Shown here: positions 11,373 through 36,479 of the stretch, piece by piece
Numbering within the stretch: the stretch's first letter is position 1
How the letters are laid out: every line of letters starts with the position of its first letter
From: Roseimicrobium gellanilyticum
GTDB lineage: Bacteria; Verrucomicrobiota; Verrucomicrobiia; Verrucomicrobiales; Verrucomicrobiaceae
Direction: 5' to 3'
Assembly: GCF_003315205.1 (NCBI RefSeq)
Contig: NZ_QNRR01000001.1
Span: 62,001 to 126,000 of the forward strand
DNA length: 64,000 nucleotides
The notes under the pieces: generated by a model
What the model was told of the DNA's origin: nothing
Seen by the model: the letters and a program-made list of their open reading frames with translations, nothing else
Databases searched by the model: none
Program-made: the position numbers and the translations under genes

Positions 11373-11833
11373 GGGGCGATGACCTCCAAGAGAGAGCAGG
11401 CGAAAAGTCTCAAGGCCTTTGCACGAACTCCTGTGGAGGATTTGACCCCAAGAGGATGCTGCGACCCAAGGAGTGGGAACGCCTCGTTCCCATGGTGAAA
11501 GGGTGCATGATTTACCCCGCCCGAAGCGCTTCTCCGACACAAGAGAGGTCGCGTGGGTGCCGAATCACAAGGGGTAGTTACGTACTGATGGGAACGAGGC
11601 GTTCCCACTCCTTGGGCATGAATGGCGCGTGAAAGGGGAAGCTCCCAGCCACAAACCGAGTGGGCAGGAGTGAGTCTATTTGGTGGCATCTATTGCACCC
11701 AAACGCGCGCCGCCCCCTGAATTTCCCCTTGGGCCAGACCCGCTCCGGATCACCCGATTTGCCTTCGAGTGCATTTTCTACTTTCCACCCCGGCAGCGCT
11801 CGCTCTAAATCCTCGGGATTTCCTCACATCATC
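11373..11833. other. Intergenic region carrying a REP pair, upstream of pheA
   Basis: This 461-bp gap holds no gene. It contains the inverted REP pair at 11465-11616 and about 215 bp of presumed pheA leader. No terminator or promoter motif stood out. Confidence 0.6.
11465..11616. repeat. REPIN-like inverted pair, family 1, copy A
   Basis: A perfect 29-nt inverted repeat has arms at 11465-11493 and 11588-11616. Each arm holds the palindromic core GGGAACGCCTCGTTCCC (11475-11491, and reverse complement 11590-11606), preceded by the foot AAGGAG. The same core flanks the RAYT transposase at 26.1-26.9 kb and occurs in a third pair at 36.1-36.2 kb. The arrangement, two inverted REPs with a short spacer, is that of a REPIN. 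Confidence 0.85.
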
Positions 11834-12931: not shown

Positions 12932-12963
12932 GATTTGAAATTTGAGATCTCAAATTTCAAATC
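12932..12963. terminator. 32-bp perfect palindrome between convergent genes
   Basis: GATTTGAAATTTGA-GATC-TCAAATTTCAAATC reads identically on both strands, without a mismatch. It lies between the stop codons of pheA and the leftward kup gene. It can form the same AT-rich hairpin in either transcript, so a bidirectional terminator is the simplest reading. It lacks a U-tract, and a protein-binding palindrome is the alternative. Confidence 0.6.
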
Positions 12964-25324: not shown

Positions 25325-26002
25325 GTGCTTGCTGACATCATCACCCTCTTTCCCGAAGTCGTAAACGTCCCGCTGGGCTCCAGCATCATGGGGCGGGCAC
25401 GGGACAAGGGGCTGTTTCAATTTCGTGTGCATGACCTGCGGGAGCAGGGCATGGGGAAGTATCGCCAGGTGGATGATGAGCCGTATGGCGGCGGCCCGGG
25501 CATGGTGCTCCGGCCAGAGCCCATCTTTGCGACTTTGGAGCCGTTGCGCACGCCGCAGAGCCGCGTGTTGCTGATGACGCCGCAAGGGAAGCCCTTCAAG
25601 CAGGAGGATGCCGTGCGGCTCAGCAAGGAGGAGCACCTTATCTTCTTGTGTGGTCACTACGAAGGTGTGGACCAGCGCATCGTGGAGAGTTGCGTGGACG
25701 AAGAGCTGAGCCTCGGCGACTACGTGCTCACGAATGGCGCGATCGCCGCCGCGGTGATGATCGATGCCATCGTGCGTCTCTTGCCCGGAGTGCTCGGTGA
25801 TGATGAGAGCGCGGTGCAGGAATCCTTTGGCGAGTCTGGTTTGCTGGACCATCCGCACTACACCCGTCCGGCGGAGTGGCGTGGCATCAAGGTACCGGAT
25901 ATCCTGCTTTCCGGTGACCACGGGAAGATTGCCAAGTGGCGCAAGGAGCAGGCGCTCGAGCGCACAAAGGCGAATCGGCCGGATTTGCTCGAAGGAAAGT
26001 AG
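25325..26002 (+). CDS. trmD: tRNA (guanine-37-N1)-methyltransferase
   Basis: The family starts with M.IDI.TLFPE, so a GTG at 25325 (reading MLADIITLFPEVV) is preferred over the ATG 25 codons earlier; this gives 225 aa. Diagnostic motifs are present: YGGGPGMVL, LCGHYEGVDQR and the trefoil-knot SAM-binding segment LGDYVLTNG. The conserved DDESAVQESF and DHPHYTRP follow. It methylates G37 of tRNAs and prevents +1 frameshifting. It is not in the usual rpsP-rimM-trmD-rplS cluster here but follows prfB by about 105 bp. Confidence 0.92.
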   Translation: MLADIITLFPEVVNVPLGSSIMGRARDKGLFQFRVHDLREQGMGKYRQVDDEPYGGGPGMVLRPEPIFATLEPLRTPQSRVLLMTPQGKPFKQEDAVRLSKEEHLIFLCGHYEGVDQRIVESCVDEELSLGDYVLTNGAIAAAVMIDAIVRLLPGVLGDDESAVQESFGESGLLDHPHYTRPAEWRGIKVPDILLSGDHGKIAKWRKEQALERTKANRPDLLEGK

Positions 26003-26078
26003 TCCGCCGAGCTTCGTCGGCGGGGGCGACAAGGCCTGCAAACACCAGCAGACTACAAGCGTCTCAGGCAGGTGAGCG

Positions 26079-26128
26079 CAGGCCCAAGGAGAGGGAACGC
26101 CTCGTTCCCTTCAGGGTGAAACGTCCCA
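26079..26128 (+). repeat. Left REP arm of the RAYT locus (family 1)
   Basis: CAGGCCCAAGGAGAGGGAAC... continues through the palindromic core to ...AAACGTCCCA. It matches the right arm in inverted orientation apart from one extra C in the right copy and lies just past the RAYT stop codon. Confidence 0.85.
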
Positions 26129-26153
26129 TGACGAATCCATCCCAGCTAACGTC

Positions 26154-26807
26154 TCAGTCCTCAACCGGAGCGAATTTCCTCGCTAGCTCCGTCTCATAGA
26201 GCGTGTATTCACCCTCTCGCAGTTTCGCCTTGGAAGGATTCCTCCTGATATACCTCACACAATTCGCGAAATGGTTCCCATCCCGAATGAGTCGGTCAAA
26301 GTAATCCACTTGCCAAAGCGTTCCCCGCCTTCCGGCCAACCTGTTGATGGGATGTGTTGAAGAGCCCTTCCACGATTTCATGATTTCCTTGAGATCCGAC
26401 TCGATGTGCAGGGACGTCAAGGTGTGCGCGTGATTGGGCATGATCACCCATGCGTGATGCCAGTAGAGCACCTCATCAGAATGCCGCAGCGTGGCTTCCA
26501 CAAGAGCGCGGCAGCCGGGGTCTCGAAGCAAACAAGAACCATGTCCGGCATCCAGCCACGCATCCATCTTGGCTGAAAAGCGTTTGTGGTATTCTTTCTG
26601 CACTTCCGCGGTCCACGGCTCAGGATGATGGGAAAGCCAGATTTCGCGTTCTTGTTTCCATTGAGCGCGCAGCTTGGCGGGTACAGCGTCGGCGAGGCGG
26701 ATTGTGAGGAAGTAGGTGCGATCGGGTTGCTGCCAGTGAGGGAGGCGGTTGGCGGTCTTCGCGACGTGGTCGAAGGGGTTATAAAAGTGTAGCGACTCGC
26801 GGTCCAT
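26154..26807 (-). CDS. REP-associated tyrosine transposase (RAYT, Y1/HUH family)
   Basis: The 217-aa protein shows the IS200-like Y1 transposase fold. The HUH metal motif is in VIMPNHAHTL (His126, His128). The downstream segment WQVDYFDRLIRD offers the likely nucleophile Tyr169, and VRYIRRNP closes the conserved region. An N-terminal insert relative to small IS200 TnpA is usual for RAYTs, which are single-copy, domesticated-looking proteins that nick and join REP DNA. The gene is complete, has no partner ORF and is enclosed by inverted REPs. It lies on the same strand just downstream of the Rieske/desaturase operon and might be read through from it. Confidence 0.85.
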   Translation of the reverse strand: MDRESLHFYNPFDHVAKTANRLPHWQQPDRTYFLTIRLADAVPAKLRAQWKQEREIWLSHHPEPWTAEVQKEYHKRFSAKMDAWLDAGHGSCLLRDPGCRALVEATLRHSDEVLYWHHAWVIMPNHAHTLTSLHIESDLKEIMKSWKGSSTHPINRLAGRRGTLWQVDYFDRLIRDGNHFANCVRYIRRNPSKAKLREGEYTLYETELARKFAPVED

Positions 26808-26874
26808 CGCTGGATGGTTGCGCGATATGAATGCAGAATCAAGGTCGGTGATATGCCATGGTGATGGTGGATCG

Positions 26875-26925
26875 TGGGACGTTTCACCCCTGAAGGGAAC
26901 GAGGCGTTCCCTCTCCTTGGGCCTG
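26875..26925 (-). repeat. Right REP arm of the RAYT locus (family 1)
   Basis: Inverted copy of the left arm, containing the core at 26895-26911. It lies upstream of the RAYT start and 29 bp past the stop codon of the squalene/phytoene-synthase-like gene. Confidence 0.85.
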
Positions 26926-26953
26926 TGCTTCCGTCGTGGATGACTTGTAGGTG

Positions 26954-36002: not shown

Positions 36003-36479
36003 GTGATGGTCAACCGAGCCATAGCCATCGTGACATCGCCGATTTGAAGGCGCATGCGCCTTCTCAAGGAGCGGGAACGCCTCGTTCCCGAACCCCTGAT
36101 GTGACAATCACACTGCCCGATGCAGGCAACATCATGATTCCCGCGCGCGCATCTACTCTAATCCGTGGAGCAACCTGGCGGCGCATGCGATGGCCGTCGG
36201 TAATGGCCACCTCAGTCGTGCGGGAACGAGGCGTTCCCGTTCCTTGGGCGTGCGCTCCAACCGTGTTGTGGTTGTTACGGGCTTTGATGTTGTCACGCCC
36301 CGGCACACCCGTGAGTTGACATCCCGACGATCACGCCCATTCCCAATGTCAATGATCGCGTGCACTGCATGGCGCGATTTTGAAACGAGAATCTGATTGA
36401 GTCCATCTGGATTCTGCGGATTGAAATGGGTGCGTCTTTTCGCACTCAAAACGTCCCCTCGTCTCCTCAGTAATTCTTC
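36003..36479. other. aguB-aguA intergenic region with palindrome and REP pair
   Basis: This 477-bp gap holds no gene. It contains the 18-bp perfect palindrome GAAGGCGCATGCGCCTTC at 36046-36063 and the inverted REP pair described separately. About 230 bp of relatively AT-rich sequence precedes aguA and probably carries its promoter. Confidence 0.6.
36065..36246. repeat. REPIN-like inverted pair, family 1, copy B
   Basis: Cores GGGAACGCCTCGTTCCC at 36073-36089 and the reverse complement at 36222-36238 lie in inverted arms of about 26 nt (CAAGGAGCGGGAACG... against CAAGGAACGGGAACG...), which differ at one position. A perfect palindrome at 36046-36063 abuts the left arm. It matches the pair at 11.5 kb and the RAYT flanks, but the spacer is different. 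Confidence 0.82.

Follow-up and report, generated by a model that had tools for sequence, protein, structure and literature searches.

By what means a RAYT recognises its REPs, and how a single family of enzymes comes to give rise to many private repeat families, are open questions, with experiments available for a few GTAG systems only. Both questions arise at a locus within a 64,000-nucleotide stretch of Roseimicrobium gellanilyticum DNA (hereafter the window), in which a RAYT gene lies between inverted hairpins that recur elsewhere in the same stretch: does this enzyme mobilise the REP family around it, and what would it read in a REP?

The RAYT gene and its flanking arms

The RAYT (TnpA_REP) gene occupies positions 26154-26807 on the minus strand and encodes 217 aa, as established from the list of open reading frames, profiles, an alignment to E. 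coli TnpA_REP (4ER8) and a predicted model. Its identity as a RAYT, proposed in an earlier note made from the letters alone, was borne out by profile, motifs and fold. The protein matched Pfam Y1_Tnp (5.9e-7; score 30.1, cut-off 23) and narrowly passed NCBIfam NF047646 (REP_Tyr_transpos), with 81.5 bits against a cut-off of 80. Searching the PDB with its AlphaFold model (pLDDT 89) returned the TnpA_REP-REP complex 4er8 as the best match (E 4.8e-06, TM-score 0.57 on target length), followed by IS200/IS605 TnpA proteins. In the 4ER8 alignment the HUH motif (H126-A127-H128) and the catalytic tyrosine Y186 (in YIRRNP) coincide with their E. coli counterparts, H126, H128 and Y186 being invariant in 16 relatives, and the E. 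coli guide segment W94-Q95-E100-H101-R104 corresponds to W165-Q166-D171-R172-R175. The same alignment ruled out Y169, the residue in DYFDRLIRD that had initially been put forward as the candidate catalytic tyrosine and that sits within the guide segment.

A Y1/HUH protein with terminal hairpins, whose fold relatives include the TnpA proteins of IS608 and ISDra2, could in principle belong to an ordinary insertion sequence of the IS200/IS605 type. We consider this very improbable, because the gene is single-copy (the next paralogue is 58% identical), its tyrosine lies in Y---NP (YIRRNP) rather than Y---Q, no tnpB accompanies it between the neighbouring trmD-like and terpene-type ORFs, and the flanking hairpins form an inverted pair that recurs in dozens of gene-free copies. 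The window does not hold a self-contained system, as had been supposed: the source genome (G000) encodes seven Y1 proteins, and of the six paralogues of the window RAYT (all at 58% identity or less) at least five are flanked by hairpins or inverted repeats of their own, unlike those of the window RAYT.

The left arm of the cassette (26075-26131, plus strand) consists of the foot CAAGGAG (26085-26091), the hairpin A-GGGAACG-CCT-CGTTCCC-T (26092-26110) and an inner part, TCAGGGTGAAACGTCCCATGA; the right arm (26872-26929, minus strand) has its hairpin at 26894-26912 and its foot at 26913-26919 (CTCCTTG on the plus strand). The arms pair over 42 nt at 98% complementarity (26075-26116 with 26888-26929) and then over 18 nt at 94% (26114-26131 with 26872-26889). 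Inverted arms bearing the palindrome GGGAACGCCTCGTTCCC thus flank the RAYT as the earlier note had described, except that they measure about 57 nt instead of about 50. The GGAG foot given there was incomplete: the full foot is CAAGGA followed by one variable base.

A dispersed REPIN family in two sister species

The core GGGAACGCCTCGTTCCC occurs six times in the window, as three facing pairs (11475/11590, 26093/26895 and 36073/36222), so that the two satellite pairs announced at 11.5 and 36.1 kb are indeed present. The first is a REPIN at 11467-11614 (core spacing 115, outer pair T-A) and the second a type B REPIN at 36065-36246 (core spacing 149, outer pair C-G). Allowing up to three mismatches, we counted 12 core matches in the window (palindromes counted on both strands) versus 0.39 expected from shuffles. 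The 7.93-Mb, 32-contig assembly contains 51 exact cores, against none for the reversed control, and a looser pattern gave 70 matches genome-wide, again with none for the control. The copies are mainly inverted pairs: 24 of 38 elements comprise two REPs, 23 of these with both feet outward. Their core spacings are 111-117 (15 elements), 135-151 (7), 298 (1) and 802 (the RAYT cassette), and the 22 REPIN pairs with spacings of 111-151 bp fall by their interiors into two main types, A (111-117) and B (135-151).

Each REP copy is built of CAAGGA plus a variable base, followed by N-GGGAACG-CCT-CGTTCCC-N', an 8-bp stem with a 3-nt loop. Across 59 copies the foot positions -7 to -2 read C59 A58 A55 G59 G58 A59, and position -1 reads G39 A10 C6 T4. 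The outer pair N-N' is C-G in 39 copies, T-A in 10, G-C in 4, A-T in 2, T-G in 3 and G-G in 1; it is thus Watson-Crick in 55 of 59, against 31 expected from independent bases, and this compensation shows directly that the hairpin itself is kept, not the sequence alone. The arrangement of two inverted REPs around a short spacer in many copies is that of REPINs. The foot is not the GT[AG]G of canonical REPs, since the 59 copies read CAAGGA+N, and the family copies do not carry the CGTC at the hairpin end that marks CGTC-tagged REPs (PMC3733652).

A few single copies (C1:48322, C4:412624 and C16:63179) have a foot on both sides, a 'double foot' form for which PMC6006769 suggests a possible origin by deletion between paired REPs. 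At C5:449918, C4:412624 and C16:63179 of G000 the loop is inverted relative to the foot and/or two feet are present, as would result from the two arms of a hairpin trading places. Unrelated to the REPs, the window also contains a perfect 14-bp stem with a 4-nt loop at 12932-12963 (GATTTGAAATTTGA GATC TCAAATTTCAAATC), AT-rich within a GC-rich region.

What ties these copies to the window RAYT? Hairpin and foot are identical in the cassette and the family. Beyond the hairpin, GGGTGAAA and neighbouring bases recur at the ends of the cassette and at the left end of type A REPINs, which the inner part of the left arm resembles, a match equalled in 0 of 1000 shuffles; type B REPINs have the hairpin and foot alone in common with the cassette. 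Of 143 genomes two contain the core, both from this genus, and core plus foot had no match among 84,980 species, a set from which its own and near genomes may have been left out, so that this is no proof of absence. One of the two genomes is that of the sister species (G001), with 36 exact core copies and 59 loose matches. No RAYT adjoins a family copy there: all 17 RAYT-profile matches lie at least 11 kb from any copy, and the orthologue of the RAYT site is without a RAYT. The earlier note had proposed that the window RAYT probably mobilises this REP family, and that a core rare elsewhere in the genome, or equally common in relatives without the RAYT, would speak against it. Confinement to the genus fits the proposal and 36 copies without a flanking RAYT do not, which leaves it unsupported in the form stated; mobilisation of the family by the window RAYT is nonetheless plausible. 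The G001 copies imply that either the RAYT was lost in G001 or a relative serves the family.

On the latter alternative, an older or paralogous RAYT reading the AAGGAG foot would have spread the GGGAACG REPINs, and the window RAYT would merely carry the same arms. The G001 copies speak for this, as does the foot, which is common to several paralogues. Moreover, besides the RAYT site, six G000 elements coincide in position with G001 members, from which it follows that the family is older than the split between the two species. Against it, the other RAYTs that we examined in G000 and G001 have stems that are private or common only to their own orthologue, in agreement with the one-RAYT-one-REP rule (PMC6006769), and the similarity of the cassette ends to type A REPINs extends past the hairpin. 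In addition, the highest interior identity within a genome is 0.94 in G000 and 0.86 in G001, a difference that leans towards more recent copying in the genome that has the RAYT. On balance we regard spread by a relative as unlikely.

A further alternative is that a host function, for example at transcript ends or in mRNA stability, keeps the hairpins, with a domesticated RAYT and marginal transposition. At three intact REPIN pairs at common sites the arms are identical at 154 of 156 positions and the interiors at 66-80%, indicating that hairpin and foot are the conserved parts while interiors drift; this holds in G001 too, where no RAYT flanks the copies, and the elements lie between blocks conserved in both species. 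RAYT orthologues of the two species are likewise under purifying selection (dN/dS ~0.03-0.06): the pair L032/L112 has dN 0.012 and dS 0.41, and two other pairs have dN 0.08 and dS 1.3-1.4. The window RAYT itself is without an orthologue in G001, and its dS versus L113 is saturated. However, none of the listed family copies in G000 has a T-run after the hairpin, copying or gene conversion among members would equally keep arms alike, and sites turn over fast, as most comparable G000 sites hold other REP families or nothing in G001. We therefore give upkeep by a host function even less credence than spread by a relative, and retain a RAYT with its own REPs as the preferred reading.

The turnover was seen at 11 other G000 sites for which both flanks were mapped: none has a copy of the window family in G001. 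In five of these G001 slots there are strict (8-bp) hairpins belonging to other REP families, and several more contain weaker ones; overall, one or more strict hairpins occur in 6 of 11. The slots have 3.65 hairpins per kb versus 0.08 elsewhere in the same stretches, an unmatched control in that elsewhere is mostly coding. Site content thus differs between the species, and an intergenic position with one REP family in G000 can have another in G001. Neither a target-site duplication nor an exact empty site was readable, the flanks of G000 elements mapping in G001 mostly to other REPs or diverged DNA.

At the RAYT site itself, the trmD-like/terpene-type interval of G001 holds 338 bp with a GGGGACA-stem REPIN, which keeps the same CTCCTTGGGCCTGTGCT foot side and has a CGGCACTA REPIN nested within it. 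In this locus (L111, G001:C1:877500-885000), orthologous to window positions 26002-26906, the outer foot side equals that of the right arm of the window cassette and the stem differs (GGGGACA..TGTCCCC). Close by, at G001:C1:879047-881003, about 1.9 kb extra separates the prfB-like and trmD-like orthologues, a distance of about 100 bp in the window.

The best sign in our data of REP-bounded units relocating comes from the RAYT with the CGGCACTA stem (L032 in G000, L112 in G001), whose positions in the two species are non-orthologous. The sequence to the right of L032 has its counterpart at G001:160782-161891, next to another RAYT, one with a GT[AG]G foot (L117, 160002-160616); the L112 flanks gave no alignment with those of L032, and one end of the common cassette stops exactly at the foot. 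The same neighbourhood is thus occupied in G000 by a GGAG-foot RAYT (L032, G000:C5:318867-322481) and in G001 by one with a GT[AG]G foot (L117, G001:C1:158500-162100).

Foot type and residue 172 across RAYT clades

We surveyed the feet of the RAYTs of G000, of the congener G001, of relatives in the order and of 80 named loci in GTDB genomes. At each gene we compared the hairpins that recur to its left and right and called the flank more alike between copies the foot, its sequence not being presupposed. Nearly all RAYTs of the window (DYFDR) type have a CAAGGAG foot next to differing stems (CGGCACTA, TGGGGGCA, CGGCGATT, GTTGGGGCG, TGATGGCT, GGCGGTT, GGGCGACG and more), and in the wider clade the foot is NGGAN, for example in Lamprocystis (Pseudomonadota) and Syntrophobacter records. 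A sister clade of ESYDH-type (DH) RAYTs in the same genomes has a GT[AG]G foot.

The distribution of foot types agrees almost perfectly with the RAYT phylogeny. With 44 RAYTs in the tree, 2 changes suffice to explain the three foot labels, which is the minimum, compared to a mean of 9.6 for shuffled labels. On a tree of 100 RAYTs, GGA versus GT[AG]G requires 3 changes, of which one stems from a misread label (L274, labelled GGA by pattern, reads AAGTGGAA, i.e. GTGG). No foot label was assigned automatically at 23 of the 100 loci, several of which read CAAGGTG or CAAGGCG, the same foot with one base changed. L114, whose GTGR-like flank had made it a candidate exception, has CAAGGAG...CTCCTTG as its outer arm and was left unlabelled; L197, which has an in-frame stop, was left out of one protein alignment.

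These data suggest a scheme that we hold to be probable: the locus is a REPtron, in which a single-copy RAYT with its own flanking REPs is accompanied by about 60 REP copies, mostly non-autonomous REPINs, with specificity in two layers. The RAYT would bind one DNA strand folded as the predicted hairpin with 8-bp stem and 3-nt loop and read the foot 5' of it (CAAGGA plus 1 nt) as a guide, and Y186 would cleave and rejoin the strand by HUH chemistry such that REP pairs are moved or copied. The first layer would be the foot, which all members of the enzyme clade have in common (NGGAN in general, AAGGAG within Verrucomicrobiaceae), and the second the stem sequence, private to most RAYTs. We infer binding, cleavage and movement, as well as the role of the window RAYT, rather than a relative, as maker of the copies, from sequence.

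The protein column that best separates the feet is that of R172, a residue adjacent to the active site: GGA-type proteins have R there in 50 cases and T in 5, and GT[AG]G-type proteins have H in 25 of 25, five foot labels having been corrected manually after inspection of the feet. Within the GT[AG]G types, one small subclade has T at this position together with a GGA foot, a second loss of H along with the foot. The foot change goes together with R172 (the E. coli equivalent being H101) and with Y169, and R172 may read the foot; H101 of E. coli TnpA_REP has been discussed among the guide-contact residues (PMC6006769). Only about two changes in the tree underlie the association, so the independent events are few. 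Furthermore, subclasses 2.5 and 2.7 have GT[AG]G-type REPs although R at times stands in place of H101 in them (PMC6006769); an R at this position is thus not enough to impose a GGA foot, and the residue cannot be the only determinant. Pseudomonas REPs read GTAGGAG or GTGGGAG ahead of the stem (PMC2817692), and the AGGAG part may accordingly be common or ancestral, with only the GT lost. The broader proposition is that a large clade, centred on Verrucomicrobiota and reaching Pseudomonadota, Thermodesulfobacteriota and others, would read NGGAN (AAGGAG at home) rather than GT[AG]G, that the H101-equivalent residue would set the switch (R/T for GGA, H for GT[AG]G) and that most members would re-invent stem specificity; our confidence in this is evenly divided.

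Relation to known RAYT and REP systems

The window system resembles E. coli TnpA_REP (4ER8; PMC8266576, PMC6006769) in its HUH-Y1 core, its W-Q...R guide segment and the tyrosine in Y---NP, and resembles E. coli TnpA_REP with its BIMEs in the single gene copy, flanking inverted REPs and dispersed intergenic REP pairs. It differs in having CAAGGA+N and R172 where E. coli has a GTAG foot and H101, in a perfect 8-bp REP stem with a 3-nt loop and no bulge, and in a longer protein segment before the HUH motif. With RAYT subclasses 2.4, 2.5 and 2.7 (PMC6006769) it has in common the WQ motif, YI(R)xNP, the length (median of 213 aa for 2.7) and the presence outside Proteobacteria, but the REPs of these subclasses are described as GT[AG]G-footed; the automatic REP search in that study required GT[AG]G, and its main text is without mention of Verrucomicrobia. 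TIRYTs and TIRtrons (PMC3733652) are similar in that RAYT-like genes are flanked by inverted repeats without GTAG, some of them in repeat families. Their repeats, however, are described as unrelated to REPs, whereas the inverted repeats of the window contain a REP-like hairpin with a conserved, fixed foot that recurs as REPIN pairs, in a type found in many genera. Pseudomonas fluorescens REPINs (PMC3116915) likewise consist of two facing REPs in many dispersed copies; the window family is smaller (about 60 REPs), has another foot and comprises two interior types (A, 111-117; B, 135-151).

The verrucomicrobial origin that the earlier note had thought probable was confirmed, family mates being identical to Prosthecobacter and Verrucomicrobium records. 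The novelty it saw in a REP/RAYT system outside the well-studied hosts has a precedent, as PMC3733652 already describes REPs from Opitutus terrae (Verrucomicrobia) and R. baltica, together with RAYT-like genes from other phyla. RAYT, REP and REPIN are thus known, and the unusual part is the foot and its link to a residue, for which the open papers searched gave no earlier report: PMC3733652, PMC2817692, PMC6006769 and PMC8266576 make no mention of a GGAG foot, and a full-text search of open papers had no RAYT paper containing 'GGAG' among the matches listed.

Two guide types occur within one genome and split cleanly on the tree and at one guide-segment residue, and by virtue of this clean split the determinants of the guide could be identified with few swap mutants and oligonucleotides. 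Three further loci from Lentisphaerae and uncultured, RUG-named genomes (L217, L222 and L269) have a foot of approximately CTGGGA or TTGGGAC, possibly a third guide class.
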